Virus record (IMG/VR): IMGVR_UViG_3300025646_000173
Coordinates: 1-34,438 of that record
Length of the DNA stretch: 34,438 bases
From: a virus
Reading direction: 5' to 3' (one strand)
Below are positions 1,179 to 32,282 of the stretch, piece by piece; the first letter of the stretch is position 1; each line of letters begins with the position of its first letter. The position numbers and the translations under genes are program-made. Under the pieces are notes generated by a model. It had not been told where the DNA came from and made no database searches. It worked only from the letters and a program-made list of their open reading frames with translations.

Positions 1179-1209
1179 GGAGTGGGGGGGAGTCGTGTCC
1201 CCCCACTCC
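1179..1209. terminator. Intergenic hairpin made of two inverted copies of the dispersed motif
   Basis: GGAGTGGGGGG (1179-1189) pairs perfectly with CCCCCCACTCC (1199-1209), an 11-bp stem with a 9-base loop. Both arms contain the dispersed motif CCCCCCACT in opposite orientation. No T-run follows on either strand, so it is a stable hairpin but not a classic terminator. Confidence 0.6.
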
Positions 1210-1230
1210 ACTTCATTGCAAGGATACGCG

Positions 1231-1773
1231 ATGACACTGATCAGACTGCACGACATTCGGGAAGCAGATGTGCATCCCGACGCTGGTATGTCCAACATAC
1301 CATGGGAGTATGAGTACGGCTTTCAACGTGAAGCCGACATCCTTGACGATCAATCGGAGATTCTTGATGAGTTGTATTTCTTCGGCTCGACCTCGACCGA
1401 CGAAGGTGTACTTGACGGTCTCAGTCCCGATGCCCCCACATACCGGGGCAACACCATCGTACAAGTCGGAACCTTTCTCACACGCTGCACCGTCCGTCGT
1501 AACGGTGAACTACAGTGCGTCACAGTCTCCCGTGAAGCACTCATCCTTGAAGCCAATCGGATACTTCGTGCAGCAGCAGAACTAGCCAAGTACGAAGTAC
1601 AACGTGAGTACATTCACGATGCTCCTCGACATGTCACCTATGTGTACGAGGTGAACCCTGCCGAAGTGAAGTCGCTCATCATTGACGGTGAGCCTTATCC
1701 TCTCTCCCAACTCCTCGACCTTCGAGGGTTTCCCTCAGTAGGGAAGATGGGATGGGAAGAGGATGTTGATTGA
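1231..1773 (+). CDS. Hypothetical phage protein, 180 aa
   Basis: The ATG at 1231 follows GCAAGGATACGCG, which supplies a modest ribosome site. The protein begins MTLIRLHDIREADV and is acidic and soluble. A helical stretch in the middle (SREALILEANRILRAAAELA, about residues 100-120) is followed by a beta-rich C-terminal part and an acidic tail ending EEDVD. No known motif, membrane segment or metal site is visible. Its end overlaps the next gene by 11 bases, so the two are probably translated together. I do not recognise a family. Confidence 0.8.
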   Translation: MTLIRLHDIREADVHPDAGMSNIPWEYEYGFQREADILDDQSEILDELYFFGSTSTDEGVLDGLSPDAPTYRGNTIVQVGTFLTRCTVRRNGELQCVTVSREALILEANRILRAAAELAKYEVQREYIHDAPRHVTYVYEVNPAEVKSLIIDGEPYPLSQLLDLRGFPSVGKMGWEEDVD

Positions 1774-1963
1774 AGTCAAGGTCACACGGATTGATGACAA
1801 GATTGTGGGCCTTGAAACCAACAACCACTTACGGAGTATTCCCCCCACTCTCCCCCTCTACACCAGATCGAGAGTGAAGGTCTCGATCTATCACCTTCCA
1901 CCCGCTGCGGTGGAATCCTTCTACAACAAACTAAGGATGCAGTTAGAAGAGAAGTCGATGTGA
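1763..1963 (+). CDS. Hypothetical protein, 66 aa
   Basis: Small basic protein starting at an ATG inside the end of the preceding gene (11-base overlap), which implies translational coupling. The sequence begins MLIEVKVTRIDDKIVGLETN and looks like a short beta-barrel or OB-like strand set followed by a C-terminal helix. One exact copy of the dispersed motif (1840-1849) encodes Pro-Pro-Thr in its middle. A canonical terminator begins three bases after the stop. Function unknown. Confidence 0.75.
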   Translation: MLIEVKVTRIDDKIVGLETNNHLRSIPPTLPLYTRSRVKVSIYHLPPAAVESFYNKLRMQLEEKSM

Positions 1964-1965
1964 TT

Positions 1966-2002: not shown

Positions 2003-2058
2003 ATGTGTTCTTGTTCAGCAGGGTAAAAACCGACATGAACATGCACCCTTCATCCACT

Positions 2059-2091: not shown

Positions 2092-2121
2092 GCTGCATTT
2101 CTTTTTCCTTTTGGAGCCGAC

Positions 2122-2439: not shown

Positions 2440-2727
2440 ATGCTTCCGGAGTTCCGCATGATTCAGAAAGAAGCCGCCGCCAACTTCACCACCTTCATGA
2501 CGGCAGCCGCCAACGAAGACGTAGCCCTCGTTGCCTGCAAGGATGCCAAGGGCCGGGAGTTCCAGACTCTCTGCATCGTGGCCCAGACCATGAATGAAGA
2601 CTACGTCTATCTCCCCTTCGCCCTCATGATCACGCCTTCCCTTTACCCTCTCATGGGTAAGGTGAAGCCTCCCGACAACCTCAAAGGAGAATGGATCTGG
2701 GATGACGACGACGATCCCCCTACCTGA
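2440..2727 (+). CDS. Conserved-looking small phage protein, 95 aa
   Basis: Strong ribosome site GGAGGAAAG before the ATG at 2440. The sequence has a predicted helix (residues 1-25), then beta strands with VALVACKDAKGREFQTLCIV, then a Pro- and Tyr-rich segment, and ends in an acidic tail of five Asp. The layout of an ALVxC strand followed by VPLA/LPFA and an acidic, Pro-rich end is seen in short phage proteins found in replication clusters; the function of those is unknown to me. It overlaps the next gene by 26 bases. Confidence 0.75.
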   Translation: MLPEFRMIQKEAAANFTTFMTAAANEDVALVACKDAKGREFQTLCIVAQTMNEDYVYLPFALMITPSLYPLMGKVKPPDNLKGEWIWDDDDDPPT

Positions 2728-3436
2728 ATTCCCCTCTCACCCAACCTGCAAACGCTGCGACCTCCATGCAGCAGCCAAGAACCCCGGGGTACCGACACGC
2801 TTCTTCGAGAAGTCGGACCCCGGCTCTCGTCTCGCACCACTCGTTGTGGTCGGCATGAACCCCGGTGTCAAAGAGGACGCCACCAACCGTTGCTTCTCCG
2901 GACCCTCCGGCAACCTACTCACCAACGTCTACCTCAACCACGCCGACATCCTGTCGCACCCCATCTACCTCACGAACGCTGCCCGCTGCCCTACGTTGGG
3001 CAACAACGAGAAGCCCAAGCAACGCCACTACAATTCCTGTTGGGGATACACCGACGACGACCTCAAGACTGTCGCCGCCGCTCACCCTGACCACATCGTG
3101 TACCTCCTCTGCCTCGGTGCTGACGCATATGCCTCCATCTCGAAGCACCTGCTCGGCAAAGCCATGGCTCTCCGTCACGGCTTCAACAACCAAGGCCAGA
3201 CAAATGTCCTCGGTTTTGTGGACCGCTTCCGAATCTTTGCTACCTTCCATCCTGCCGCTGTCCTCCGTGAACAGAAGTACCTGTACCCGGTGAGCGATCA
3301 TATCGAGTTGCTGTCCAACGCACTCAACGGCAGACTCCCAACCCCCTCTTCCCCCCACTTGGTGGATCCAACATGGCCTACCCCACCGACCCAGAAATCA
3401 AAGCAGCCTTCGAGCGAAACTTTCTGGACCAAATGA
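2702..3436 (+). CDS. Uracil-DNA glycosylase-like protein, family 4/5 type with 4Fe-4S site
   Basis: The 244-residue protein has the layout of 4Fe-4S uracil-DNA glycosylases, which remove uracil from DNA at the start of base-excision repair. The four expected cluster ligands are visible as C16-x2-C19 and C96-x16-C113. The active-site loop reads GMNPG (51-55), followed by FSGPSG (65-70), the strand motif NAARC (92-96), and the C-terminal FHPAA (182-186) in place of the usual HPS/YHPA loop. Phage members of this superfamily sometimes act in replication and not repair. The last 32 residues are Pro, Ser and Thr rich and low in complexity; they overlap the next gene, so the tail is probably overprinted. 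One copy of the dispersed motif (3350-3359) lies in that tail. No enzyme activity is proven. Confidence 0.88.
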   Translation: MTTTIPLPEFPSHPTCKRCDLHAAAKNPGVPTRFFEKSDPGSRLAPLVVVGMNPGVKEDATNRCFSGPSGNLLTNVYLNHADILSHPIYLTNAARCPTLGNNEKPKQRHYNSCWGYTDDDLKTVAAAHPDHIVYLLCLGADAYASISKHLLGKAMALRHGFNNQGQTNVLGFVDRFRIFATFHPAAVLREQKYLYPVSDHIELLSNALNGRLPTPSSPHLVDPTWPTPPTQKSKQPSSETFWTK

Positions 3437-3564: not shown

Positions 3565-3847
3565 CATCGACGAACAGATCTGTCTCGATGACCTTGAGAT
3601 CGACGGGCTTGACATGACAGTCACGTTGGACTGCGATGTGACACGCAACACTCTCACCGTCAACAAGGTTCACCTCTCCGAAGCCGACGAGAAGTTCATC
3701 GTGCAGGTTGTGAAGGAAGCAATCAAGGAACACTTCGAGGAGAAACTGGAGCCCCGTGAGATCTGGGACAAGGAGAAGGAGTGGCAGGAATCACAGGACG
3801 CCGAAGCATGGAGGGAGCAGAAACTGCTCGGAGAAGATGAATGCTGA
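3554..3847 (+). CDS. Hypothetical acidic protein, 97 aa
   Basis: Starts at an ATG overlapping the previous gene and ends seven bases inside the polymerase gene, so it is part of a tightly coupled cluster. The N-terminal half is beta-rich and highly acidic. The C-terminal half is a long charged helix running from SEADEKFIVQVVKEAIKEHF to the end, rich in Glu, Lys and Trp and probably a coiled coil. No catalytic residues or membrane segments are seen. Its place directly before the DNA polymerase suggests a replication-linked role, but nothing in the sequence proves it. Confidence 0.75.
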   Translation: MKIDIDEQICLDDLEIDGLDMTVTLDCDVTRNTLTVNKVHLSEADEKFIVQVVKEAIKEHFEEKLEPREIWDKEKEWQESQDAEAWREQKLLGEDEC

Positions 3848-5970
3848 TCAGCCTCGACATCGAGACGTACGGTGCTGCGAAGGGGAATCACATCGGTGTA
3901 CTCCTCCCCAACCAGACTGTCTTCCACCCCACGAAGTCCTACTACATCGACGGCGTGAGCCTCGACGACATGGTGCTGACGGCAGCCATCACGCTGCCCA
4001 AGGAACAGCCGACATCTCTGCGATTGAACTTCGACTTGCTGAGTCGGCTGGAGCCCGGTTCGACGATGGTGTTCCAACTCCATGACCCAGAACACCGCCG
4101 GATGCTGAAGGCATGGATCTCTTGTGCCACCACCATCATCGGTATGAACCTCCAGTTCGACATCCAATACCTGATGGCGGCGGACATTGATGTTCCCCCC
4201 GCCAAACTGGTGGACCTCTCCGTCCTCAACTACCTGCACTCCGAACTCCGGGAGGAGCGGAGCCTCAAGGCATTGGGTCCTGTCCTTGGTGCCTTCGCCT
4301 ATTCCGAGACCCTCAAAACCGTCCGTTACAAGCGGGCTACAGATCAAAAGTTGTTGTTCTACAATGCACAAGACACCCACAACACCATGCTCGCAGTCGC
4401 CGAGTTGTCTAAGCGACTCCTCAGCGAGAAGTTCGAGACCCACTACGACTCCGGCCTCGGGGCGTACTGCATTGAGTTCTATAGCCGCAGTATCTGGGCA
4501 ACTATTGGAATGTCCAGAGCGGGTATCCCCATGTCCTCACTCCGACTCCAAGACCTCATGGATACCCTTCGGTGTGACTGCGACGACGCCGAGACTGAGG
4601 CCGCAACCTACGGGCTCATCCTTCATGGTCCCGGTTCAGCCACCAGCAAAGACGAGTTCCTGAGTGAGACGATCTCCCTCATCGAGCGGACCACGAACCC
4701 CGACATCATGGACCGTCTCGATGTGACACCAAAGACCAAGAAGGTGTCCTTCTCCGAGAAGAATCGGCTCGCCCTACTCGAAGCCCTGCCCGACACCGAC
4801 GACACCCACCAGTACCGACGCTGCATCCAACTTGCCAACGGCCATGCCAAGGCCCTCAAGTTGATCTCGTCCTACTGCTATCCCCTCCTCTACCACCGTC
4901 GCAACAAGCCCGACGACATGTCCTCCATCCTGATTCCCATGGGTGGACGACAACTAGAACCACCCCAAAACCACAAGATCACGATCTTCTCGTCGGCAGC
5001 AGAACGGGTGGACGCAGCAGCCACCGCCATCATCAACGTCAGGACCCGGGCCTCCAACCGTTTCAACGCTGACCGTACTATCGACACCGCCGACGCCATC
5101 GCCTACCCCACTTGGTACGTTACCCCCAGCCACATCAAGAACGACACCGGCACATCCGGCGGCACCATTCAGGGCCGCATCACCTGCAAGCAGCCCAGTG
5201 CCCAGACCTTCCCCAAGGTTATCAAGAACTGCATCCGGTCCCGGTGGAAAGGTGGAGCCATCGTGGCGATGGACTTGTCACAGGCAGAACTCCGGGTCGC
5301 TGCCCTCCTCTCGGGAGAGACCAGCATGATCGACGCCTACACCGAAGGCCGTGACCTCCACGCAGAACGGGCACGAACCTTGTGGGGGGACTACGACGAC
5401 GACACCTCCACCCAGCACCAGCGACGACAGGTTGGCAAGATGATGAACTTTGCCGACCTCTTTCTGTCATCGGCACCCACGATGAAGGAGCAGGTGTACG
5501 CACAATCTGGAGGGGACATCGAACTTCCGCTTGACTTCTACCAAGAAGTTGTGGCGTCACGCCCAAGAGTTAGACCCCAACTCACCAAATGGCAACAGGG
5601 TCTCCTCAAAACTGCGGAGCGGGACCACAGAATCCTGCTGCCGTTGACGGGACAGTCCCGTACTTTCCTCGGGGACCTCGGTCCGGTGAAGTCTGAAGTG
5701 GTGAACTTCCCAGTCCAGACCACGGCAGGCAACGTGACGCTTGCGATCCAGCACGCACTGATGTCAAGGCTCAAGCCTTCCGCTTCCTACATGTTCCTTC
5801 AGATCTACGATGCCATCTATATCGACACAGCCCCCGGATATTCTGAAGGTGCGGTTGACGCGGTGGCAGATGCAGTGCAGTATGTGGTGACGGAGGGGTA
5901 CTGGAACGACCTCCAGCGGATCTACCGCAGGACAGTACCTCTCAAGCACGACATCGACATCCTGACTTGA
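3841..5970 (+). CDS. DNA polymerase, family A, with 3'-5' exonuclease domain
   Basis: Replicative phage polymerase of 709 residues. The exonuclease domain shows D6-x-E8 (SLDIETYG), N103/D107 (GMNLQFD) and Y174-x3-D178. The polymerase domain shows motif A with D478 (DLSQAELR), motif B as R529-QVG-K533-MMN-F537, and motif C as IYD657AIYID. Position F537 matches Phe762 of E. coli Pol I, a residue that published surveys of viral polymerases link to virulent phages. Oddities: motif C has Ala658 where His-Asp-Glu enzymes have the second acid, and motif B carries Phe541 where Tyr766 is usual. There is no 5'-3' exonuclease domain. The middle region (residues 190-440) is not easily assigned. A copy of the dispersed motif (complement, 5381-5390) encodes Leu-Trp-Gly-Asp. 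Confidence 0.97.
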   Translation: MLISLDIETYGAAKGNHIGVLLPNQTVFHPTKSYYIDGVSLDDMVLTAAITLPKEQPTSLRLNFDLLSRLEPGSTMVFQLHDPEHRRMLKAWISCATTIIGMNLQFDIQYLMAADIDVPPAKLVDLSVLNYLHSELREERSLKALGPVLGAFAYSETLKTVRYKRATDQKLLFYNAQDTHNTMLAVAELSKRLLSEKFETHYDSGLGAYCIEFYSRSIWATIGMSRAGIPMSSLRLQDLMDTLRCDCDDAETEAATYGLILHGPGSATSKDEFLSETISLIERTTNPDIMDRLDVTPKTKKVSFSEKNRLALLEALPDTDDTHQYRRCIQLANGHAKALKLISSYCYPLLYHRRNKPDDMSSILIPMGGRQLEPPQNHKITIFSSAAERVDAAATAIINVRTRASNRFNADRTIDTADAIAYPTWYVTPSHIKNDTGTSGGTIQGRITCKQPSAQTFPKVIKNCIRSRWKGGAIVAMDLSQAELRVAALLSGETSMIDAYTEGRDLHAERARTLWGDYDDDTSTQHQRRQVGKMMNFADLFLSSAPTMKEQVYAQSGGDIELPLDFYQEVVASRPRVRPQLTKWQQGLLKTAERDHRILLPLTGQSRTFLGDLGPVKSEVVNFPVQTTAGNVTLAIQHALMSRLKPSASYMFLQIYDAIYIDTAPGYSEGAVDAVADAVQYVVTEGYWNDLQRIYRRTVPLKHDIDILT

Positions 5971-6876: not shown

Positions 6877-8726
6877 TGCCGTGGGATACTCATAACTTTA
6901 GCATTGACACTGGATTTGCGGTGGATACGGAGTTCTTCTCCCCCCACTTCCGGTCCTCTACCGAATACGGACCTCTCGCATCTGTCACGATTACCGATCG
7001 TGACAGCCAGACCTCATCCCTCCAAGCCTACATCAGTGTTGATGGGGTGGATTGGGTTGCTTCAGGTTCTCCGCTTACTGCAAGTGGTACTTTGGATCTG
7101 AGTTCTGTTCGAGCCCCATACTTCCGCTGGGGATTCAAGAACACCACTGCTTCTCCCGGGGGTATCTCAACCGCAGAAGTCACGATCACATCGTGGCTGG
7201 CGAGTAAGGAAGATGCCGTAAACGCCATTACTGTTCAAGAGCAGTACGTTTATGGGGACTTCAATATCGCCCAGCAAATGGTGAGCGGTAAGGCAAACGC
7301 TACGTTTGTTGGGGACAGCATCACCAATGATCAGAACGGCGGTGGAAGTACCCAAGTCTACAAGTCCTTTTTTTACGGGGCACTGGCAACTTGGCGACCC
7401 GCTGTCTGGGGTCAGGTTGGAATCCCCGCGATTGTCCCCGCAATCAACGCCACTACGGGACTTCGATACAACGTCAACACTTCAAGTGCCGTATCCTTTA
7501 ACCTCAAGCCGGGTGAACCGTTGAGTGGTGATGGTTCAAACTACCCAACTAGTCTTGTTGGTTCTAGCCCCCACACATTTAAGGTCGTCGAGATCACCGC
7601 AAACATTGGGTTGAATGGAAATATCTATTCAACAGGATGGCAGAAGGAAGTGTGGGATTCTGCTCAGGGAACTGCCCAGAACTTCTTCTTCAATGGAACA
7701 GAGTCTCGATACTTCACTGACTCCTCCGGGGCTTATACCTTTGCTGTTGACGGGGAAGATTACATCGCCAGATATATCTTTGTTGTAACCTCCGATCCGT
7801 TTACAGGTGCCGACGCGGGGGTGTTGTCCACCCTTTCAAGTGGAGGGATAAAGGCAAGGATTGAACTTCCAGAGACCGGTGCTTCTCCCGTTGATGCGGA
7901 CATTGATATCTCTGATCAGTATCCTGCAAGTGGTTCCAAGATTGTGTGGCAAGATGTGCCGTTCACTACCACTTCTACTTTCCCCCCCACTGAAGATCTC
8001 TACTTCCGGCTGTTTGGAAACGGGGACAACAACGTAAATACGGTCATCATCCAGCCCACTGTTCTTTTGAAGAGGGCGACCAAAACCGGCCTTGGTTTGA
8101 CGTATGTGGGGCAAGGTGCATGGGATCTTACAAACCATGCGTATGAATACGGCAACCCTAATGTCGTAGAAAATGATATTCCTGCATATCCCGGGGCGTA
8201 TTCAGATGACGCCTTGAAGCAGTGGATCCAAGCAAACGATCTTGATGTATACGTTTTCTTCATTGGACAAAATGACGGACGTATTTACAGCGCGGATACG
8301 GCAGAGGTTGCGGCTGCTGAATCGGATTACGACCTCATCGTTGAGAGGTACCGTAGGTTGCATCGAGAAGCCAAGGGAAACGCTGCAAAGTTCGTTCTGA
8401 TTACGAACTACAACACTGCAGAAAGTGATACCACTGGTGCTACGACCGCATCGCGTAGGCGTGCTTTCAATGAAAGACTTATTAGAAAGTACGGTGGAAG
8501 TTCTGATTGCCTTGTTGTAGATCTTGACGGATGGATCAGGCAGCAGTTTGAGTACGGGGATTATGGTGTAGGAGACAATCAGTTCAAGGCTCAATGGACA
8601 GAAGATGGAACCCATCCAATGAGTCTTCTTGGATCCAACGCCGCCCTCAATTTGTACGATGCAGCAGACAAGATGATGGAGTTTGTTTGGGACCGCATTG
8701 AGTACGCTTCGGGATCTACTGCGTGA
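6876..8726 (+). CDS. SGNH/GDSL-family hydrolase with N-terminal beta-sandwich and large internal insertion
   Basis: 616-residue esterase-like protein. The N-terminal 110 residues repeat the domain of the preceding gene. The SGNH hydrolase part shows block I as GDSIT with the nucleophile Ser148, block III as IGQND with Asn466, and block V as EDGTHP with Asp577 and His580. About 310 residues, mostly beta strands with Gly-rich loops, separate blocks I and III, which is far more than in ordinary family members and suggests an inserted carbohydrate-binding or trimer-forming domain. Family members deacetylate or de-esterify polysaccharides; on phages they often act on host capsule as tail proteins. 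No signal peptide is seen. Two motif copies (6939, 7981) lie inside. The block near 7561-7620 is 48% GC by count, against 62% in the polymerase block at 4981-5040. Confidence 0.88.
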   Translation: MPWDTHNFSIDTGFAVDTEFFSPHFRSSTEYGPLASVTITDRDSQTSSLQAYISVDGVDWVASGSPLTASGTLDLSSVRAPYFRWGFKNTTASPGGISTAEVTITSWLASKEDAVNAITVQEQYVYGDFNIAQQMVSGKANATFVGDSITNDQNGGGSTQVYKSFFYGALATWRPAVWGQVGIPAIVPAINATTGLRYNVNTSSAVSFNLKPGEPLSGDGSNYPTSLVGSSPHTFKVVEITANIGLNGNIYSTGWQKEVWDSAQGTAQNFFFNGTESRYFTDSSGAYTFAVDGEDYIARYIFVVTSDPFTGADAGVLSTLSSGGIKARIELPETGASPVDADIDISDQYPASGSKIVWQDVPFTTTSTFPPTEDLYFRLFGNGDNNVNTVIIQPTVLLKRATKTGLGLTYVGQGAWDLTNHAYEYGNPNVVENDIPAYPGAYSDDALKQWIQANDLDVYVFFIGQNDGRIYSADTAEVAAAESDYDLIVERYRRLHREAKGNAAKFVLITNYNTAESDTTGATTASRRRAFNERLIRKYGGSSDCLVVDLDGWIRQQFEYGDYGVGDNQFKAQWTEDGTHPMSLLGSNAALNLYDAADKMMEFVWDRIEYASGSTA

Positions 8727-9376
8727 GCAGGGTCCTCGTCATCGGAGACCTGCACTGTCCTGCCGACCTCACGAAGTATCGGCAGCACTGTCAGAAGATC
8801 CGTGACAAGTACCAGACGGATACCACCGTCTTCATCGGTGACGTTGTTGACGCTCATCGGTGGGGACGGTGGGATCCAGACCACGAAGCAGACTCTCCCC
8901 CCACTGAATACCTCAAGACCCGGAAGCGGGTGCAGTGGTGGCACGACAACTTTCCGGAGGCCACCGTCGTTATTGGCAACCACGACGAACGCTCCGTCCG
9001 CCAAGCACGCACGGTAGGAATCCCGGATGACCTCATCAAGGGATACCCAGAAGCGTGGGGCACCCCGTCATGGAAGTGGGGGGAAGCAGCCGAGATCGAC
9101 AAGGTCCGGTACTTCCATGGCACTGGGTTCTCCGGGAAGTTTCCCCACGCCAACGCAGCCATCGCTTCCATGCAGTCCATTGTGATGGGTCATATCCACT
9201 CCGTCGCAGGGATCCACTGGATCGCACGTCCCGGAGGACGCTTCTTCGGGATGTGTGTAGGCTGCGGCGTTGACCTCAAACACCCCTACATGCGGTACGC
9301 AGAGCGGCATCCTGTCCGTTCCATCCACGGATGCGGTGTCGTTCTTGACGGGCAGCCCTATCTGGAGGTCATGTGA
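8723..9376 (+). CDS. Calcineurin-like metallophosphoesterase
   Basis: 217 residues with a full set of metal ligands: D9 and H11 in GDLH, D40 in FIGDVVDAH, N86-H87-D88 in VIGNHDER, and G156-H157-I-H159 in MGHIHS. This is the two-metal active site of the calcineurin-like phosphatase and nuclease superfamily, which in phages is often near replication genes and may act on nucleotides, DNA ends or protein phosphates; the substrate cannot be told from sequence. The GTG at 8723 overlaps the preceding stop (GTGA). The C-terminus ends PYLEVM. Two motif copies of opposite orientation lie in it (8896, 9075), encoding Pro-Pro-Thr and Lys-Trp-Gly-Glu. Confidence 0.92.
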   Translation: MSRVLVIGDLHCPADLTKYRQHCQKIRDKYQTDTTVFIGDVVDAHRWGRWDPDHEADSPPTEYLKTRKRVQWWHDNFPEATVVIGNHDERSVRQARTVGIPDDLIKGYPEAWGTPSWKWGEAAEIDKVRYFHGTGFSGKFPHANAAIASMQSIVMGHIHSVAGIHWIARPGGRFFGMCVGCGVDLKHPYMRYAERHPVRSIHGCGVVLDGQPYLEVM

Positions 9377-9603: not shown

Positions 9604-9862
9604 CACTTCTTGCCAGCGTGTGTCTGCCGTGACCGGCGTCCTCCAACTCGCCGTCCTCATCGTCGGAGTGGGGGGAGTATTCTTCACCATCGGTGTGAGG
9701 GATGCGGCACTTGAGGATGCGGTGGCAGAAGTCTCAGAACTCAAGAGCATCAGCAGCGACCTCGTCAAGGCTCAGGTTCTTTCCTCCGCCAAGGACGGCG
9801 AGCATGACCGGATGCTTACTGATATCCTTCGGAGGCTCGAACGCCTTGAGACGCAACCCTGA
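9596..9862 (+). CDS. Small membrane protein with one transmembrane segment and a coiled coil, possibly holin-like
   Basis: 88 residues. One hydrophobic segment spans about residues 13-33 (LQLAVLIVGVGGVFFTIGV) and is followed by a charged helix with heptad-like Leu and Val spacing to the end. This shape occurs in some single-span holins and in i-spanin-like proteins, and the next gene encodes a lipoprotein, so a lysis role is possible. No muramidase or amidase gene lies beside it, which weakens that idea. An exact motif copy (complement, 9667-9676) encodes Gly-Val-Gly-Gly within the membrane segment. Confidence 0.75.
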   Translation: MSDTSCQRVSAVTGVLQLAVLIVGVGGVFFTIGVRDAALEDAVAEVSELKSISSDLVKAQVLSSAKDGEHDRMLTDILRRLERLETQP

Positions 9863-14633: not shown

Positions 14634-14634
14634 C

Positions 14635-15429: not shown

Positions 15430-15457
15430 TCCTGTACAAACTAGTCCCCCCACTTCC

Positions 15458-17495: not shown

Positions 17496-17531
17496 TCCCC
17501 CCCACTGGGCTTCGGTTCAGTGGGGGGTTTT
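17496..17531 (+). terminator. Rho-independent terminator built from two inverted motif copies
   Basis: CCCCCCACTG (17498-17507) pairs perfectly with CAGTGGGGGG (17518-17527), with a CTTCGG-containing loop and four Ts (17528-17531). Both arms are copies of the dispersed motif, so motif and terminator are the same sequence here. Confidence 0.93.
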
Positions 17532-22305: not shown

Positions 22306-22315
22306 TGGTCAATCC

Positions 22316-23505: not shown

Positions 23506-23824
23506 GAGGCATCCTCTCTAACACAGGAAGTGCAGTCATTGTACCGACTCGAATCCGGGATACATCAGATTCTTCGTCGTATTCAGTTTCTACAAAGGCC
23601 CGGTCCCGCTGGATAGGACGGGTATTCCGATGTTCCCAAAGGAACCGTCGGACGGCTTTAGGACTCAGATCGGGACCGGGGAAGGAACGCTCATAACCCT
23701 CATGGTAAAAAGGCACCGCCTCCTCCGGAAACTCCTCCACCGGAAAGTGGGGGGACTCCAGAAAGACCACGCCGCCCGGATGACGGCCTGCAACCACCTT
23801 CGAGATCTCCTTCCAATCTCTCAC
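23495..23824 (-). CDS. Hypothetical protein, 109 aa
   Basis: Begins at a GTG at 23824 in a GTGA overlap. Soluble, acidic and Pro/Glu-rich (FPVEEFPEEAVPFYHEGYERSF), with a C-terminal strand region (SRIRVGTMTALPVLER). No known domain. An exact motif copy (complement on the plus strand, 23746-23755) encodes Ser-Pro-His near residue 25. It lies among ejection-type proteins and may be a small virion or assembly protein. Confidence 0.7.
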   Translation of the reverse strand: MRDWKEISKVVAGRHPGGVVFLESPHFPVEEFPEEAVPFYHEGYERSFPGPDLSPKAVRRFLWEHRNTRPIQRDRAFVETEYDEESDVSRIRVGTMTALPVLERMPHGS

Positions 23825-25500
23825 TGTCCAGTTCTCCGGGCACGGCGTCCAGCAATAAGTTCTTCCAACGCCCCAACTTCTCCCATGGTTGCTCCTCGAT
23901 CGGCTCGAATCTTAGCCAAGTTGGTGAGGTCTTCGTCGAAGATCTCTTCAGTCTCTCTCTGCCGCAACATATCTTCAATCGTTCTTTCTTGGCTTCGAAG
24001 GCCCGCAAGTCCTGTCTCCAAGCCAGAGAAGTCGGTACCAAACGCGGGGCCTTCGTAATCCCCCAAGAGATCTTGAAGTGCGTCTACCCGGAAACCTTCT
24101 TCTCTCTCAACCTCAGCACCGAGGCTCTCTCTGAAGTCTGTAAGAGAATCAACAGAGTCCACTGACTCCCCAAGAAGAATCAGAGGAGTAGCGTTCTGGC
24201 CTCCAAAGATCTTCTTGGAGACGTAAGCACCAAACCCCGTCATAAACCCCGCGGCCCCGTAGTCCCTTTCCTCGTCAAGACCTTCAAGATCCTCGAAACT
24301 GTCAGGAACACCGGCAGTCATCAAAGCCTTTCGCCGTGCATCCAACTGGCGACCTGCGGTCTGAATCGCACTTTGAAGGATCAAAGGACTGACCTTGGCT
24401 TGGGCTGCAAGATCAACCAGTTTCTTCTTGGTGTCTTGAATTGAAGTGGGATCGTCGGAAAGACTCCTGAAGATGTCCTGCAACCCTTGGTTGATGATGC
24501 CCCGAGAATCCTCTTGGATTCCACCGAGAGCATTTGCAATACCCGAAGCCATTCGTCGGTTTAGAACTTCCCTTGCTCCCAAAGGCTCTACCCCGGTATC
24601 CATCCCGAGCATTCCCGCCACACCCGCTATAGCCTCTAGTTTGAACTCAGGAGAGCCAGTCGAAAGATTGGAAGCCACAAACTCACCAATGCCGGTGTCT
24701 TCGCCGAGAGCCTCCAACACCATTCTCTGTCGAGTGTTGAGATCTTCAAAAAACCACCGCGTAGGATTAAGGGCCTTCAGGATGTCTGTTCCAGCCCGAG
24801 ACAGCCTATCACTGTCAATGCCGAAAGCAGACAGATCTTGAGACTCAATCCAGTTTGCAGAGGCCAAGGAATCTGCAATGGATGCCCCTACCTTGTCCAC
24901 TACAATTTGGTTCTTGAGGATCTCATCGTCAAGACCCTTCATAATTTTCCGAAGATCTTCAGAAACATTCTCATTGCCCGTCCTCAGCATGGTCTGAGCC
25001 TTGATCATTGCGACCTCAAAGGCTGACCGCTTTTTACGGATTTCTGCAAGTTCTTCTTCGTAACGGAGTTGGGACTCTCCAAGGGCTCTTGCCTTCTTAG
25101 CCTCCAACTGTATCTCTTCATCCTTCATCGCAAGAAGTTCTGAGTACTTCTCACGCTCAAACGACTGTTCCTCTTCAAACCTGCTTTGTTCTTGACCCAT
25201 GCGTTCGCGAGCAACATCGGCTTCAATCCTCGCCTTCTCGGCGAGAAGTTTACGGTAGTCCTCCTGCGATTGAGCAGTAGCAGTAATTCCGGCAAGTTGG
25301 ACAGCATTTGAGGCAAGCCCCTGCTGACGAGCAAGATCCAACTGCTCGCGTTGCATCTGCTCCTGCGAACGCTGACGCTGGGCCGCCATCGCCTGCTGTG
25401 CCCGGATCTGCTGCTGCTGAACAGAAGTCTGTTGAGCCTGAGCAATAGGCTGTTGAGCGGCTTCAGCAGGATTGAAAAGAGGAGATGCGCCTCGGGACAT
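23821..25500 (-). CDS. Coiled-coil internal virion protein, 559 aa
   Basis: I chose the ATG at 25500, because GAGG lies six bases before it; a TTG at 25512 is the alternative. Residues 10-60 are Gln/Ala-rich. Residues 60-180 form a long coiled coil (LLAEKARIEADVARERMGQ, then FEREKYSELLAMKDEEIQLE). The rest is helical with Gly-rich turns, including a segment with GAAGFMTGFGAYVSKKIFGG that could touch a membrane. The Gln-rich start and long coiled coil are typical of podovirus internal or ejection proteins, which exit the capsid before DNA. No enzyme motif. It is translationally linked to its neighbours at both ends. Confidence 0.78.
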   Translation of the reverse strand: MSRGASPLFNPAEAAQQPIAQAQQTSVQQQQIRAQQAMAAQRQRSQEQMQREQLDLARQQGLASNAVQLAGITATAQSQEDYRKLLAEKARIEADVARERMGQEQSRFEEEQSFEREKYSELLAMKDEEIQLEAKKARALGESQLRYEEELAEIRKKRSAFEVAMIKAQTMLRTGNENVSEDLRKIMKGLDDEILKNQIVVDKVGASIADSLASANWIESQDLSAFGIDSDRLSRAGTDILKALNPTRWFFEDLNTRQRMVLEALGEDTGIGEFVASNLSTGSPEFKLEAIAGVAGMLGMDTGVEPLGAREVLNRRMASGIANALGGIQEDSRGIINQGLQDIFRSLSDDPTSIQDTKKKLVDLAAQAKVSPLILQSAIQTAGRQLDARRKALMTAGVPDSFEDLEGLDEERDYGAAGFMTGFGAYVSKKIFGGQNATPLILLGESVDSVDSLTDFRESLGAEVEREEGFRVDALQDLLGDYEGPAFGTDFSGLETGLAGLRSQERTIEDMLRQRETEEIFDEDLTNLAKIRADRGATMGEVGALEELIAGRRARRTGQ

Positions 25501-25508
25501 GGGATACC

Positions 25509-26570
25509 TCAAGCGTTGGCAAGGAACTCACTGAAACCAGAACTATAGTCTTTGACTCCCTCAATCTGACCGTAAGAAGTCAGAGTTGCAAGGAGAGGAG
25601 CAAAGGCAATGTTTGAGAATGGGTTGCTTTGAATGAACTGAGCATACTGCCAGTTGCCCATGCTCTCATGCTTTGCCGCTTCCAACTCCATCATGGAGAT
25701 CATGTTTGCTCCGGCCTGATGCAGACCGGAAGCCAAAGTGTTGTATTGAGATTCAAGACCTCCACCGGCAATCATGGCCTGCACCACATTCTGGCCCAAA
25801 CCCGCATTGAACTGCTGGTTCTGTCGGTAGATCTGGGTTTGCTGGGCCTGAACTTCGGCGTCTCTTTGACCCATGAGTTGCGATCTTTGAGCAATCAACA
25901 TGGGATCTCCAGTAGCCTTGATCTGGGCATCAAGTTGTTGGATTTGAGATCCGTAGTTCTTGACCAATCCGTAAGCAGCCTCTGACAGATAGGTCGAGCC
26001 TGCAATCTTTCCTTCTTCTTCCACGCGGCGGGCTTCTGCTACAATCTCGTTAGCCCTGTCCGCACCAATCCCAGCCAACTGTCCTGCAACATCCGTCAGT
26101 TGGCCCGCAGCCGTTTGCCCCGCCTCTCGAATGCTTTGCGCTCCCTGCGTCGTGGAGGCCAAAGCCTGATTCGCGGCTGCAAGATTCTGCTGGTAGTTGA
26201 ACTGATTGGTCTGCCCAGCGGTTGCTGCATCTCCCATTATCAGACCCATCATAGTGTCATAGTCGGTAAAACCACCAGACGACGGGGCTCGTTGAAACGT
26301 TACAGAAGAAAATGGATTCTGGAAGGATCCCCCCACTTGCCTTTGGAACATCCCGGTGGCGGGGTTGAAGTTGTAACCTTCGGGTGCTTGAGGCTGTACG
26401 TTTTGGAAAAGATCCATGTACGGGCCATAGGGAGACGCCGTTGGGGGCGGACCCTGAAAGCCGGGAGTATTCCCCCCACTCCCCATGTTGTAGCCCGGGT
26501 TCGTGGTGGAGCCGAAGTTCGTGAAGGTCGGCCCGCCTCCAAATGCTCCAAATGAACTCATCGAACTCAT
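25509..26570 (-). CDS. Internal virion or tail-linked protein, 353 aa
   Basis: The N-terminal 95 residues are Gly, Pro, Phe and Tyr rich with low complexity (SFGAFGGGPTFTNFGSTT..), and hold two exact motif copies at 26328 and 26471 read as Val-Gly-Gly and Ser-Gly-Gly. From about residue 110 it is an Ala/Gln-rich helical protein with a coiled-coil part (QSIREAGQTAAGQLTDVAGQ). Such a floppy head with helical body is seen in DNA-ejection proteins of podoviruses. The start forms a TGATG junction with the nozzle gene. Exact role unknown. Confidence 0.75.
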   Translation of the reverse strand: MSSMSSFGAFGGGPTFTNFGSTTNPGYNMGSGGNTPGFQGPPPTASPYGPYMDLFQNVQPQAPEGYNFNPATGMFQRQVGGSFQNPFSSVTFQRAPSSGGFTDYDTMMGLIMGDAATAGQTNQFNYQQNLAAANQALASTTQGAQSIREAGQTAAGQLTDVAGQLAGIGADRANEIVAEARRVEEEGKIAGSTYLSEAAYGLVKNYGSQIQQLDAQIKATGDPMLIAQRSQLMGQRDAEVQAQQTQIYRQNQQFNAGLGQNVVQAMIAGGGLESQYNTLASGLHQAGANMISMMELEAAKHESMGNWQYAQFIQSNPFSNIAFAPLLATLTSYGQIEGVKDYSSGFSEFLANA

Positions 26571-29218
26571 CAGGTGTTCCTTTCGCTGGTGTCGGTGTTC
26601 GTGGTGCGGCCCCTACAGATCACCGCCATCAACTTATAGTCTACGTCCGGACAGAAGATCTCGATCCCCGGATTGAGGGCTGAGTCCTGAATTCCGTGGC
26701 GGCCCCGGGTCTGAATGCCCGTGGCAGTGAACGCCGCGTAGTCTTCGGACTCCCCGTTCTTGATGGATTCCCCAATAATAGTACCAGAAAAATCCACGGG
26801 AATAGAAGAAACTGCCGCAGAATCCGATTCCGTGTTGTAGACAAGGCCCCGGAAGAACTTGTAGCCGGTAGTCCCTCCACTAACGTCGGAGAAGTGGCAG
26901 CCCACGGACGAGACCTGCTTGTTCTGGAAGAGGTCCATGGTGGACACCACCTGATTATCCTCCGTCCGGACCATGGGCAGGGCCCCGCCGACGTACCGGA
27001 ACAGGACCGGGCTCAGGGCGATAACGTCCCCCACCGCCAGAGCATCCCACCGATTGAAGACGATGGATCCTTGGCCGTACCCCGGAAGAGTCAGGTTGGC
27101 TGTGCCGGGGGTGACGCTGAAAATCTGCTTCTTGGTACCGACCTTTGAGGGGTCTGAAGACGCTACGACGTAAGCGTAGGCCCCAACAAGATCGTAGCCA
27201 GAACCAGACGAAATGCTCTTAGCCGTAGAAGTGTCAGTCAGAGGCTCTACCGTAGTGACACCGCTAGCCGTGGTGACTGATCCCACCTTGAAGATGACAT
27301 CGCCGTCATATTCTAGAGTACGGATCGTGGAGGTCCCGTTTGGGATAGCAGTTGCACCGTTCGACGCCTTGACCCGGTCAAAGTCTTGGATGTAGACGCG
27401 GGGTTGCCACCCGTCGGGGATATTGGCTGAGGAGGTAGAGGGGGCATTTTGAAGGAAGAACGCCCGCTCCACCATGACAGTGTCTACCCCGATCGAGGTC
27501 CCGGTCTTGGGCCAGATCCCGGTGCGAACGTCGTCAAATGGAACGTCGTGGAACTCAGAGATGCGTCCAGTCCCGAACCACATGCAGACAGCCTTGTGCT
27601 GGTTGGGGTTCTGGATGTAGAGAGACGACGAGTACGGATCGTAACCAAGCCTCAGATCCGCCAAGTCATCGTACCAATCCTCCAACAGGAGGTTGTCGAG
27701 GGCTTGAACATCGTTGAGTTGGCCGTTGTTGGCGACGGACTTGAGGCCCTTCGTCGTCAGGAAGTAAACGACCGGGCCGACAGATGCCACACCGTTCCGG
27801 GCTGCAAGGCCAAAGCCAGCGTGGAGATCCTCGATCCTCAGGTAGATCCCGTTCCGGCGGATGTGGTACAGGCGGTCGTTGCTGAACCCGATTGCAAACT
27901 CGCCAGTCCTCACCAACTTCGAGACACGATTCTGGAAGACATCCGGAACGTACTTGTTGTTGATGGGGAAGAGTTCCGGACTTCGCTCCGTGAGCGAGGA
28001 CCACCGAATCTCCCCGACGTTCCGCTTTCGCTCCGCCATGCTGATGGAGACTTGGAAGGGTCCGGATCCTTCCGGCACATTCGTGGGCCCATCCGGATCA
28101 CCAATGATGAGACTGCCCTCAAAGGGCACGGCGGCACCAGCGTACGGAACCTCAGCGTCATAAATCGAACGGTCAAGATAGATGTCCTGCATCGCCAAAG
28201 AGATGTCGCTCAGGGCAAAACTCACCTTCTTGACGTTGAAGTCTGCCGTGTACGGAACCGATCCGTTGTCAGCGTCGGTGAGGTCAGCGACATCGTAGAT
28301 GCCGTCAAGGTGCATGATGCTGCCTGCGTACACTCCCCCCACTGATTGGAGGCGGACAGACCGGAACAGGTAGATCTGGTCGTACTTCGTGGAGTCCACC
28401 TCGCAGTACAGCGTTACCTGCTGGGCGGATGCCCCGAAGTCTTCTTCTTCCTTGGAAGTAATTTCGCTGAGGGCGGTGCGGCGTCCCGTCAGGCTGTTGT
28501 GGAGGTAGAACGCGAAAGAGTAATCGCCCGCCTCAAAGGTGTGGTTGTCGCCAGCCTGCGTCTCCAGCACAAACCGGAACCGGGGGTACTCCTCCGCCGG
28601 GTCGCCCCACTGGGTCAGGCTGTCGAAAACCTCCTCAGTGGGGGGAAGGCCGGGGCCTGCGTCCAGTACCGTCGAAACGAAATTGCCAAGGCCCGTGGGG
28701 TCCTCAGTGTAGAAGACGCGGGGAGCCTCTCCCCTCACGAACACAAACACGAAGCGGCCCATCGACACCACCTCCATGTTGGCAGTGGGGCTGACGTGAC
28801 TTCCTCCCGTGTGATCACTCAGAAGAATGGTCCGCCAACTGGTAGCCGCGTCCACGGCGAGCGTGGTCTGGAAGTCCATGTAGACAGCGGCGTCTGAGCC
28901 CGTCTTCACTCGGTACACGAAACCGTGGCCGAAGTGATTCTCCTTGATCTGGAAATGGACGGGGTAGCAGTCCGTGACCCTCGAAGACTTTGTGGCGGCA
29001 GGAGGAGCGTCTGCTCCAAGACTGCTGAAGTCTTCGAGAGTGCCAAGAGTGTGGACATACTTGAAGCCCGAGGAAGGACGGCACCCAAACTTGCGAGAGC
29101 CATCAATGCCCACGACCTCATGGGCAAGACCCTCCCCACTGAGGGCGATTCGTTCAATGCCCTTGTTCTCAGAGGCAGTAATAGTTGGGTAGATCCACCG
29201 TCTATTGATCTCAGCCAT
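26570..29218 (-). CDS. Tail nozzle / tail tubular B-like protein, 882 aa
   Basis: Large beta-rich protein. The sequence from about residue 400 to 570 (RTGEFAIGFSNDRLYHIRRNG, GVASVGPVVYFLTTKGLKSV, ADLRLGYDPYSSSLYIQNPN) repeats strand-loop units like the beta-propeller and barrel parts of podovirus tail nozzle or stabilisation proteins (gp12 of T7 and gp10 of P22 are the known relatives by layout). It would form the distal tube through which DNA and ejection proteins pass. Two motif copies (28334, 28637) are read as Val-Gly-Gly and Pro-Pro-Thr. Assignment rests on length, layout and place, not on a catalytic motif. Confidence 0.78.
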   Translation of the reverse strand: MAEINRRWIYPTITASENKGIERIALSGEGLAHEVVGIDGSRKFGCRPSSGFKYVHTLGTLEDFSSLGADAPPAATKSSRVTDCYPVHFQIKENHFGHGFVYRVKTGSDAAVYMDFQTTLAVDAATSWRTILLSDHTGGSHVSPTANMEVVSMGRFVFVFVRGEAPRVFYTEDPTGLGNFVSTVLDAGPGLPPTEEVFDSLTQWGDPAEEYPRFRFVLETQAGDNHTFEAGDYSFAFYLHNSLTGRRTALSEITSKEEEDFGASAQQVTLYCEVDSTKYDQIYLFRSVRLQSVGGVYAGSIMHLDGIYDVADLTDADNGSVPYTADFNVKKVSFALSDISLAMQDIYLDRSIYDAEVPYAGAAVPFEGSLIIGDPDGPTNVPEGSGPFQVSISMAERKRNVGEIRWSSLTERSPELFPINNKYVPDVFQNRVSKLVRTGEFAIGFSNDRLYHIRRNGIYLRIEDLHAGFGLAARNGVASVGPVVYFLTTKGLKSVANNGQLNDVQALDNLLLEDWYDDLADLRLGYDPYSSSLYIQNPNQHKAVCMWFGTGRISEFHDVPFDDVRTGIWPKTGTSIGVDTVMVERAFFLQNAPSTSSANIPDGWQPRVYIQDFDRVKASNGATAIPNGTSTIRTLEYDGDVIFKVGSVTTASGVTTVEPLTDTSTAKSISSGSGYDLVGAYAYVVASSDPSKVGTKKQIFSVTPGTANLTLPGYGQGSIVFNRWDALAVGDVIALSPVLFRYVGGALPMVRTEDNQVVSTMDLFQNKQVSSVGCHFSDVSGGTTGYKFFRGLVYNTESDSAAVSSIPVDFSGTIIGESIKNGESEDYAAFTATGIQTRGRHGIQDSALNPGIEIFCPDVDYKLMAVICRGRTTNTDTSERNT

Positions 29219-29475
29219 CAGTCTTCGCTTTCATGAGGAAAGAGTTCGTTCCACTGTTTTCGTCTTTTGGCACACCCACAGTTAGATTTGAAGGAGGCAG
29301 AGAGTTTCTCTCCGACGTTCTCTAACTTCATTTTCCGGAGAGCCCGGGTAATGTCGTCTCCGAGACCCCTGCTCACGCCGTCATAGTCTTTGCACGACAA
29401 GCAGTCGCTGTTTGTGGGAGTTCCACTGAAGTGTCCCAGCGTGCAGTAAGGCCCATTCAGATTGTAGCACTTCAT
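29218..29475 (-). CDS. Small Cys-rich phage protein, 85 aa
   Basis: The ATG at 29475 is chosen because it makes an ATGA overlap with the preceding stop; a longer reading frame reaches 29577. Cys residues occur as C3, C10, C24 and C27 (CLSC), then C65 and C67 (CGC) before KRRKQWNELFP. The pattern CGC-x2-R followed by a short Trp/Leu-rich end is common in small phage proteins next to tail genes, and paired Cys could bind zinc or form a disulphide knot. A helix (GLGDDITRALRKM) lies between the two clusters. Role unknown, but its place next to the nozzle gene suggests virion assembly. Confidence 0.72.
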   Translation of the reverse strand: MKCYNLNGPYCTLGHFSGTPTNSDCLSCKDYDGVSRGLGDDITRALRKMKLENVGEKLSASFKSNCGCAKRRKQWNELFPHESED

Positions 29476-30548
29476 GGTGTTGGACAATTTGCAGCCCCCC
29501 AATCTTCGATGGTAGACCTTGCCGTGGCCCGGATAACTTGAGTCCTGCTCACAGTTGCAGGAAGACTCAAAACGCAAGGACCCGTATCGTAAATATCTAC
29601 TCCAGCAGCACTTCTAGTGTGAGGGGCTTGCTGTTCTCCTTGCTCACAAACTTCGGTCTCCGGGTAATTCAGATCTGGCAACCCAATAGGCAAATACCCA
29701 ATACCTAATGCCCTCTCCATAGCAAAGCACATGGCCTCCGTGTTTCCTTGGGCCAACTCGTAAGACCCAATATCATCATCGCAATCTACTCGGTTGTTCA
29801 GAATTCGATGTAAGTGGGCGTAAGGGAAGTAATAATCGTTTTGGTCAGAGATTGGAAATGTCTCTTGATAAACGATACTTCCACTTTCATCAAACTCTTG
29901 GACAAGTGTTTGTCCACTCCTTATCTGCCGATACGCGACAGACAATGTTTCAGGAAAAATGCTAGGGGTAAAAGCACTTCCTGCCCCATTTAAGACTCCG
30001 CCGTTCGGGATGAGAATCATGCACCTTTCTTCTTCATCACAATTGTAATCATCGTTTACAATATCCCATGCGTAGGCAGAAAAATTTGGGCCGGGTTCAT
30101 TAGAGCCAACGAAGAGAAAGTTGGAATTAGGACTTCCAAGATTTGACCATGTGACAGTGTAATCAGTTGTCACAACATTTCGTATTCGCTCTGAACCCAA
30201 GAAGTAGTAAGTCACACTCTCCGAGGAGTACGAACCACTTCCGGTAATAGAAAGACCACCGCTGATATTGCCATTGCTGTAGGGGTTAGATTTCGGGCAT
30301 GTGCAAATCCACTCAGGTGTTCCTATTCCACCTCGGTTTAGAATGTACCCCGGCTGCCCAATCGCAATAAACGAAAAGTTACGAGACATCGTCTCGTAAT
30401 CGTCATCAAAACAATCTGAAGAAGAATAGGTGTCAGTAAAAGTTCCAGTGGCTGTGTAATTCAGATCTACATACATGCAGTCAAGCCTGCACCTTTCGGG
30501 GGGGCAGTCACAACAGCACACGGAACCAGCAAGTCCACCTCTACTCAT
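29472..30548 (-). CDS. Cys-rich structural or surface protein, 358 aa
   Basis: Start at the ATG at 30548, two bases after the preceding stop. The N-terminus is Cys-rich (MSRGGLAGSVCCCDCPPERC), with more Cys at about 40, 80-82, and later pairs including YNCDEEERC. The body is a beta-rich, Asn/Ser/Gly/Tyr-rich protein (SITGSGSYSSESVTYYFLG) with no membrane span, typical of an extracellular-facing fibre or tail-surface protein. It is more AT-rich than its neighbours: the base block at 30061-30120 is 47% GC by count. That, plus the Cys content, hints at a separate origin. Not recognised. Confidence 0.7.
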   Translation of the reverse strand: MSRGGLAGSVCCCDCPPERCRLDCMYVDLNYTATGTFTDTYSSSDCFDDDYETMSRNFSFIAIGQPGYILNRGGIGTPEWICTCPKSNPYSNGNISGGLSITGSGSYSSESVTYYFLGSERIRNVVTTDYTVTWSNLGSPNSNFLFVGSNEPGPNFSAYAWDIVNDDYNCDEEERCMILIPNGGVLNGAGSAFTPSIFPETLSVAYRQIRSGQTLVQEFDESGSIVYQETFPISDQNDYYFPYAHLHRILNNRVDCDDDIGSYELAQGNTEAMCFAMERALGIGYLPIGLPDLNYPETEVCEQGEQQAPHTRSAAGVDIYDTGPCVLSLPATVSRTQVIRATARSTIEDWGAANCPTP

Positions 30549-30550
30549 GA

Positions 30551-31615
30551 CTAAACACAAGCCACACCAAGTGCAGGCATTCCTCCCATGATGTAGACGC
30601 GGCCAATGCCCCAAGACGCGGGAGCCTCAATCTCGACTGCCGTCACGATCGTGTCCACGGCATAGGCTTGAAGCGTGAAGGAGGCTACGACAGTTGATGG
30701 CTCGTTCTTGACGTTGACACTGAAGTCGTAGAGGACTCCAGCATTCGTGAACTCCAAGTCTTTGGAGCCACCGTCGTCCGCCAACACCACCTCCTGTACG
30801 GGATAGGAGTAGTAATCGACATTCCCGACGCTCCCCGCTGTAACCTCCCCCGTGATCTGGACAATGGTGGGGCGGCCCGTGGTGGAGATCGTGACCTTCG
30901 TATTGGTGCTGTCTGCCGCACCCACTGCCTTGATACCAAGCCCGTCCTCAAAGATGAGAGATGCGTTCTGGGCTCCAGCCTCAAAGGTCGTGGGATTCCC
31001 CCCACTATCGTTGACGGTGATGGTTTCGTGGAACCAGCGGTCAAACGAGAGGTTCACCGTCTGGCCGCTGGCGTCCGTCTTGATGTAATAGGATCGTCCG
31101 TTGGCTCCGCTCGTCCAGTCACCGGAGATCGTGAAGGTGTCGTCTCCTCCCGATGCGGAGATCGTGCCAGCATCCGACGCTACGTTGCCGTATCCGTCCA
31201 CCGCCGTCACACAAGAAACCAGAAACGAGCAGAGGTCGTCGCCCTTATCCAACTCGTAGTTGGTACCGCCCGCAACATTCGGGCTGGTTGTGATCCTGAT
31301 GAAGTCCGTATTGGCAGTCGTTATCGAAGTGTATGCGTTCCCCCCACCTCCACCACCGTCCGGGAAGTCAAAGTAGAAAGAATTCGGGGAAAAGAGACTG
31401 ATGTCTCCCATCGTGTTAACAAGAGACAAGCCGTTGCCATAACCAGACGCCATGGAATTGGCGTTGGAGTGTGGCACCCTGAACGCAAAATCAGTCAGGT
31501 TTCCCGGAATCGCCATCGACTCCGAAAACCCTGACATGATGTGGGGAGGATGGAGTCGAGGTACGATCGGTACCTCAACCCCGTCCATGTTGCTTGTGTC
31601 ATTCAGGTACGTCAC
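30551..31615 (-). CDS. Structural protein, beta-rich, 354 aa
   Basis: Begins at a GTG at 31615 in a GTGA overlap with a 45-residue gene; an ATG at residue 10 is an alternative. The N-terminus is disordered and Pro/Asn-rich, followed by a Gly-run, FPDGGGGGGNAY, encoded in part by a motif variant at 31339. The rest is Thr/Ser/Gly/Asp-rich beta structure (GGDDTFTISGDWTSGANGRS, then TIVQITGEVTAG). This is usual for phage tail or collar fibres. A second exact motif copy (30997-31006) encodes Ser-Gly-Gly-Asn. No catalytic motif. Confidence 0.72.
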   Translation of the reverse strand: MTYLNDTSNMDGVEVPIVPRLHPPHIMSGFSESMAIPGNLTDFAFRVPHSNANSMASGYGNGLSLVNTMGDISLFSPNSFYFDFPDGGGGGGNAYTSITTANTDFIRITTSPNVAGGTNYELDKGDDLCSFLVSCVTAVDGYGNVASDAGTISASGGDDTFTISGDWTSGANGRSYYIKTDASGQTVNLSFDRWFHETITVNDSGGNPTTFEAGAQNASLIFEDGLGIKAVGAADSTNTKVTISTTGRPTIVQITGEVTAGSVGNVDYYSYPVQEVVLADDGGSKDLEFTNAGVLYDFSVNVKNEPSTVVASFTLQAYAVDTIVTAVEIEAPASWGIGRVYIMGGMPALGVACV

Positions 31616-31749
31616 TTGTCGTCCAACTTATCCTTGATGTCTTGAAGGTCCTGCCGGATCCCTTTGACCATAGTGTAGTACACCAGTACCCACACAATCA
31701 GGGGCGTGACGTTGTTCTCAAGAATCGGAATCAGGGCTGTTGGTTCCAT
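31612..31749 (-). CDS. 45-residue single-span membrane protein
   Basis: ATG at 31749, inside the end of the upstream gene (19-base overlap), and TGA at 31612-31614 overlapping the next GTG start. The product has a hydrophobic segment (residues 12-26, NNVTPLIVWVLVYYT) and a charged tail with Asp, Lys and Arg heptad-like spacing (VKGIRQDLQDIKDKLDDK). This is the plan of some small phage holin or anchoring proteins. Too short for many gene callers, but its overlaps on both sides and conserved layout support it. Confidence 0.68.
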   Translation of the reverse strand: MEPTALIPILENNVTPLIVWVLVYYTMVKGIRQDLQDIKDKLDDK

Positions 31750-32282
31750 GGTGCCTCCCATCCCCACTGGGTGTTTAGAATCCCGAGGTCACTTCCCCCC
31801 ACTTTGCCGTCCCAGTCGAGGTCGGACCGCTGGGCGTCGGTGCCCCAATCCGCAAACAGCAGGCCCCGGTCTTCGCCGTCCACCTTGCCATCCTCGTTGA
31901 TGTCGCCTACAGGATACAGTCGGATTGCCCAATCAATGGGCACGACCTCTGTCTGGAGCGGCCCGACCGCAGTCTTCCACTGTGCGACGATCACCTTCTG
32001 CGACCACTCCCAGCAGACCTCCCCATCCGTTACCACGGGCTTCTTGCCGTCCGGGATCTTCCACCGCATCTGAAACGTGTGGAGCCGGTTCGACGCCATC
32101 TTGTTCTCGGTGGTGATCTCGCCGTCCATCTGCCACTCCCAGTCGGTGGTCTCGATGGTGTAGATCACATCGGTCTTCTTGTCGGTATTGTCGTCATGGG
32201 CTTCAACCACCCAGATCCCGTCAAGGAAGAGCCGGGTGGCCTGCATGGCGGTAAGTGCTACTGCACAAATCGGGACTTGCAT
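31731..32282 (-). CDS. Dockerin-like protein with two calcium loops, 183 aa
   Basis: The N-terminal 120 residues are a beta-rich domain with many Trp (TDWEWQMDG, CWEWSQKVIV, AQWKTAVG). The C-terminus holds two EF-hand-type loops: D127-x-N129-x-D131-G-K-V-D135-x2-D138, and D154-x-D156-x-D158-G-K-V-G162-x2-D165, each followed by a hydrophobic helix (RGLLFADWG and LGILNTQWG). This doublet is the type I dockerin fold, which in bacteria docks to cohesins; Planctomycetota genomes are full of such modules. The second loop has Gly where the first has Asp, and the codons there are a copy of the dispersed motif. The start overlaps nothing upstream and follows a hairpin-rich gap. Partner unknown. Confidence 0.78.
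   Translation of the reverse strand: MQVPICAVALTAMQATRLFLDGIWVVEAHDDNTDKKTDVIYTIETTDWEWQMDGEITTENKMASNRLHTFQMRWKIPDGKKPVVTDGEVCWEWSQKVIVAQWKTAVGPLQTEVVPIDWAIRLYPVGDINEDGKVDGEDRGLLFADWGTDAQRSDLDWDGKVGGSDLGILNTQWGWEAPWNQQP

Follow-up and report, generated by a model that had tools for sequence, protein, structure and literature searches.

A dense, strand-polarized and lineage-specific motif in uncultivated phages as a putative Chi-like site

What could account for a 10-base motif, TCCCCCCACT, that recurs again and again in the genes of an uncultivated phage? The window, that is, the whole 34,438-bp stretch of DNA analyzed here, is a fragment of such a phage and contains 19 exact copies, 14 on the plus strand and 5 on the minus strand. 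This recount matches that of the first-pass annotation, as does the expectation under an order-2 Markov model (≈0.09 exact copies with both strands summed, previously given as about 0.1). Under the same model, no other 10-mer of the window comes close to TCCCCCCACT in over-representation. The earlier figure of 28 copies including one-step variants was a slight undercount: 35 copies carry at most one mismatch, compared to 3.7 in dinucleotide shuffles (largest value 10 in 100 shuffles). The motif is short, non-palindromic and strongly over-represented; TCCCCCCACT is its C-rich strand, and read on the G-rich strand it is AGTGGGGGGA. Among the C runs in the window, those of exactly six between T and A predominate, and seven-C runs are rare.

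The IMG/VR record 3300022198_002462 overlaps the window (20,988 bp, 99.97%), giving a joined phage genome of 47,126 bp that contains an unsequenced gap. The motif was not confined to the window, as the first pass had left possible: in the joined genome the full motif has 26 exact copies, and its 9-base core, TCCCCCCAC, has 31. Nor did matched shuffling give similar counts. Permutation of synonymous codons in the joined genome left a mean of 2.8 exact copies (maximum 6 in 300 permutations), and codon shuffling of three relatives had a similar outcome.

Neither megablast searches with 17 kb of window sequence nor tblastn searches with the terminase and portal proteins found a cultured relative. 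The plus-strand arm encodes UDG-like, PolA, ERCC4 nuclease, metallophosphoesterase, DprA-like, RecB-like nuclease, Sak4-like and DUF932 proteins. The minus-strand arm encodes the large terminase subunit, and the other virion proteins there were assigned by position and size. The genes most relevant here are the following:

3841-5970, plus strand: family A DNA polymerase gene, which served to find and orient relatives
11765-13090, plus strand: RecB-like PD-(D/E)XK exonuclease gene
13734-14633, plus strand: Sak4-like annealing recombinase gene (AAA_24)
14632-15147, plus strand: conserved gene after Sak4, without a family match; possibly a single-strand-binding protein, judging by position and conservation
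17942-34438, minus strand: virion gene arm, in which the motif polarity is unchanged

The gene at 2702-3436 belongs to the uracil-DNA glycosylase superfamily but falls under the family 4 cut-offs; it lies beside PolA in most of the phage family. In relatives, a DUF5906 SF3-type helicase opens the plus-strand arm (e.g., L043:5337-6731 in genome G010), and the helicase of the window phage itself probably falls in the unsequenced gap.

The copies of the motif in the window are distributed as follows, with the relatives that share a site given by genome number:

1181-1207: inverted motif pair; 1181-1190 on the minus strand with one mismatch, 1198-1207 on the plus strand exact
1840-1849, plus strand: exact TCCCCCCACT
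3350-3359, plus strand: exact, within the UDG-like gene
5381-5390, minus strand: variant TCCCCCCACA; 9-base core shared with G005, G006 and G020
6939-6948, plus strand: exact
8896-8905, plus strand: exact; conserved in G005, G006, G008 and G020
9075-9084, minus strand: exact; aligned relatives have TTCACCCA[C/T] instead
9667-9676, minus strand: exact
10900-10909, plus strand: exact, within the DprA-like gene
11886-11895, plus strand: exact; conserved in G003, G007 and G020
13224-13233, plus strand: variant TCCCCCCACC
15445-15454, plus strand: exact; conserved in G003, G007, G008 and G020
15876-15901: inverted pair, both with one mismatch; the core at 15892 is conserved in G003 and G007
17497-17528: inverted pair, both with one mismatch, then TTTT, between the convergent gene arms
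18491-18500, minus strand: exact
19070-19079, plus strand: exact, antisense to a 1303-aa gene; conserved in G003 and G007
20525-20534, plus strand: variant TCCCCCCACA
23746-23755, minus strand: exact
26328-26337, plus strand: exact
26471-26480, plus strand: exact
28334-28343, plus strand: exact
28637-28646, minus strand: exact
30997-31006, plus strand: exact
31339-31348, plus strand: variant TCCCCCCACC
31794-31803, plus strand: exact

Three inverted repeats (1181/1198, 15876/15892 and 17497/17519) account for five of the near copies, the sixth arm, at 1198, being exact. Judging from its sequence, the pair at 17497-17528 with its TTTT probably forms an intrinsic terminator where the two arms converge.

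The sites are under selection as DNA, including at silent positions. When eight related genomes were compared with one another, 87 of 185 comparisons (47%) had the 9-base core at the aligned position, although pairwise comparisons of relatives share sites and are not independent. Among controls, aligned identity was 15.8% for 9-mers rich in C/G, 13.5% for all remaining 9-mers and 8.8% for those located 20 bp to either side; a comparison of sites with their flanks was a check that the first pass had proposed. Where the encoded peptide was unchanged, 72% of motif sites were identical, compared to 19% and 21% of control 9-mers. About half of the sites are lost between relatives, and the density of the motif seems to be maintained despite this turnover.

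Most sites are intragenic, in both sense and antisense orientation (four genomes). Four genomes from the clade of the window have the C-rich strand of the motif predominantly on the genome plus strand, both in plus-strand genes (26:6) and in minus-strand genes (35:15). The orientation is thus the same in both gene arms, and the direction belongs to the DNA molecule, not to transcription. With terminase or polymerase setting the orientation of each genome, and every clade scored with its own motif, the C-rich strand was mostly on the plus strand in all 22 genomes (452:202 overall), with no turn-over along the molecule; many of these genomes are closely related and do not constitute 22 independent tests, and the polarity of a single genome is often only weakly significant. 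There is about one site per 1-2.5 kb, and the spacing is near random in most genomes.

The finding reaches beyond one phage. Relatives collected with the terminase (76 loci) and the polymerase (20 loci) gave ≈35 records long enough for analysis, and nearly every long record had one dominant asymmetric motif, usually G-rich, with z ≈10-45. These motifs differ between lineages:

AGTGGGGGGA: the window's clade
GTGGGGGGGA: the clade sister to the window's
CGTGGGGGGAC: G027, G031, G033 and G048
TGGGGGGAG: G014-G016
AGTGGGGGAG: G012
CTAGTGGGGAA: G049
AGCGGGGAA: G040
G[C/T]TGGTGGGG: eight genomes (G037-G039, G041, G042, G044, G047 and G050)

Each type is restricted to its own branch in four trees (terminase, PolA, Sak4-like protein and RecB-like nuclease). 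Even the length of the C run is lineage-specific: it is exactly six in the clade of the window but seven, again exactly, in the clade sister to it. Exact copies occur at ≈0.4-0.7 per kb, and at up to ≈1 per kb in the GCTGGTGGGG clade. G[C/T]TGGTGGGG contains the E. coli Chi sequence, GCTGGTGG, and fits the H. influenzae Chi, GNTGGTGG. The family as a whole carries a lineage-specific, polar motif, one version of which includes a known Chi.

We consider it probable, though well short of assured, that the motif of the window is a Chi-like site, serving as a recombination hot-spot and nuclease-attenuation site for a host helicase-nuclease of the RecBCD/AddAB type. This reading is favored because the motif is asymmetric, G-rich, polar regardless of gene direction, selected at silent sites, replaced in one lineage by a Chi-containing version, and in excess over Markov, dinucleotide and codon null models. 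It is also favored by the presence of a Sak4-like recombinase and by the fact that none of the scanned proteins (many of which have no family match, from a gapped genome) matched Gam or Abc2 in Pfam; Bobay and colleagues found Chi to be over-represented in lambdoid phages that have a recombinase and lack a RecBCD inhibitor (PMC3784561). In the mechanism that we infer, from the reader and its host origin to the attacked end and the benefit, the host enzyme would attack a free phage DNA end, unwinding and degrading the DNA until it met a correctly oriented motif, where degradation would cease and a single strand would be passed to a recombinase. Dense sites in a single orientation would shield the genome and fuel recombination, and lineages in hosts whose enzyme reads another sequence would carry that sequence instead.

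The sign of the polarity fits enzyme entry at the non-terminase end. RecBCD approaches Chi from the 3' side, and of the two ends of lambda DNA, the one bound by terminase is occluded and the other is open (PMC2082072). A packaging start near the terminase genes would leave the exposed end at the start of the plus-strand arm, and for an enzyme entering there, the strand read from the 3' end would be the minus strand, on which most of the G-rich motifs lie. The sign would consequently suit an active Chi if packaging starts near the terminase, with an even chance that the agreement is accidental. We also counted the AGCGGGGAA motif of G040 towards a Chi-like role, since the B. subtilis site is AGCGG. 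Counting against it are the length of 10 bases, which is above that of known Chi sequences, and the GG that follows 71-90% of the GCTGGTGG copies per genome in the GCTGGTGGGG clade and is not needed by E. coli RecBCD. The AGTGGGGGGA of the window itself matches no known Chi, such identity being found only in the G[C/T]TGGTGGGG clade. The broader proposal, that the motif of each lineage is the signal of its own host's RecBCD/AddAB-type enzyme, which would provide several previously unknown Chi sequences and a link between phage and host, could as easily be wrong as right.

Other explanations must be weighed against this one. That the motif arises simply from codon usage, skewed composition or slippage in homopolymers would agree with the mild excess of C on the genome plus strand, but has a close to negligible probability: codon shuffling leaves 2.8 copies where 26 are observed, the run length is specific (six C in the window and seven in the sister lineage), and a motif is still present in relatives with 41-45% GC. 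Composition artefact and codon bias are ruled out by the shuffles and by the identity at silent sites (72% vs. 19-21%). Stoperators, the phage-repressor sites that block transcription elongation in cluster A mycobacteriophages, share with our motif a comparable copy number, in the tens, and an asymmetric sequence that has diverged into lineage-specific versions (PMC6550527). However, stoperators are bound by a phage repressor and oriented along transcription (PMC6550527). In mycobacteriophage SWU2, which we analyzed alongside, the top 12-mer has six copies, and these too follow transcription, whereas the orientation here is identical in both arms and no HTH repressor was recognized among the scanned proteins. 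We rejected stoperators on the grounds that the polarity is independent of transcription, and a role of this kind appears very improbable.

A site for a primase or primosome, marking the starts of lagging-strand primers in one-directional replication, would explain the same-strand polarity throughout the genome with about one site per 1-2.5 kb, and a DUF5906/SF3-type helicase is present in relatives. Known primase sites, however, comprise only 3-5 bases, no primase family was recognized among the scanned proteins, the motifs are not clustered near the helicase gene, and their spacing is near random in most genomes; we regard this explanation as decidedly unlikely. A DNA-binding protein encoded by the phage could also read the motif genome-wide, its specificity having diverged with the phage lineages, and might act in nucleoid-like organization, as a packaging aid or as a recombination hot-spot factor. 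The agreement between motif type and phage phylogeny in the four gene trees points in this direction, as does the failure to find a motif-bearing host chromosome in the genomes sampled. On the other hand, the proteins seen to be conserved in the family (polymerase, nucleases, Sak4, UDG, SF3-type helicase and virion proteins) include no recognizable dedicated sequence-specific DNA-binder, albeit with many lacking a family match, and a motif that contains Chi is not predicted by such a reader alone. A phage-encoded reader is unlikely, but deserves attention.

If the motif is a Chi-like signal of the host, a host chromosome enriched in it might be expected, but none was found among the bacterial genomes sampled. 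The only bacterial genome with a close relative of the phage, found in one contig scan, was the Myxococcales MAG NP1036 (G021), in which the relative is apparently complete on three contigs (C7, C18 and C72; L147-L150; 48.6 kb). Outside of these contigs, the MAG contained two exact copies of the motif, with none in ≈300 kb sampled. The GC content of the MAG is similar to that of the phage, so the contigs may have been binned by composition and the host link is weak; if the MAG is the true host, its lack of enrichment means that the host-Chi reading is wrong for G021. Myxococcota were dropped as candidate hosts, since the terminase occurred in only 1 of 379 genomes and the motif was not enriched in 112 others. 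Small replicon samples of Aeromonas, Burkholderia, Cupriavidus, Phaeobacter, Novosphingobium and Sinorhizobium contained at most one copy of the window motif, and the other lineage motifs were not enriched in these six samples either, only plain GCTGGTGG being frequent, in Aeromonas. Relatives of the DUF932 protein were too widespread to serve as a clue to the host.

The first-pass annotation had likened the motif to uptake sequences, Chi sites or skew motifs, and had also suggested packaging and binding of host proteins as possible roles. Chi is the best supported of these, while uptake sequences and plain skew fail on the lineage-specific replacement. The DNA uptake sequences of Neisseria and Pasteurellaceae are similar in density and scatter, but their sequences differ from this motif, and the phage family shows no link to uptake and has a different motif in each lineage. 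Like the motif, E. coli and lambdoid Chi, GCTGGTGG, recognized by RecBCD, is short, asymmetric, G-rich, over-represented, polar and scattered in genes. It differs in that the sequence in the window is not a known Chi and that Chi occurs at 0.2 per kb in inhibitor-less lambdoid phages without a recombinase (PMC3784561), compared to ≈0.4-0.7 per kb here. Other bacterial Chi-like sites, including GNTGGTGG in H. influenzae, GCTGGCGC in P. syringae, AGCGG in B. subtilis, GAAGCGG in S. aureus and GCGCGTG in L. lactis (PMC5959072, PMC8022716), are likewise G-rich, lineage-specific variants of a single functional site. They were found in chromosomes, whereas the variants described here come from phage genomes, and most of the latter (AGTGGGGGGA, GTGGGGGGGA, CTAGTGGGGAA etc.) are not among the Chi sequences in those two reports.

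Few bacteria have an established Chi-like sequence, and for most Proteobacteria a systematic search was unsuccessful (PMC8022716). Should phages concentrate and orient Chi sites, Chi could be read from phage genomes, and the motif would offer a way, open to testing, of tying uncultivated phages to the bacteria that they infect. Should the phage itself encode the reader, this would represent an undescribed system of genome-wide recognition whose specificity changes between lineages. Our literature search found no earlier account of motifs of this kind from uncultivated phages. When viral contigs were scanned for close motif pairs, an insensitive method, only one family member was returned, the best other match being a tandem repeat.

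Some further repeated sequences were observed along the way. Relatives of the 577-aa minus-strand protein (32703-34436) in loci L003 and L007 share GGGCCTCAGG, with four copies in 6.2 kb and three copies in 4.4 kb, which is perhaps another lineage motif. G011 and G012 (L061, L045-L047) have a second motif, GCTGCGGTGC, with six copies on a single strand in 17 kb of G011. The unrelated Vibrio phage CAU_VPP01 (L195, first 50 kb) has a dense motif of a different kind, the palindrome GCAATTAATTGC, for which 18 matches on both strands correspond to nine places.
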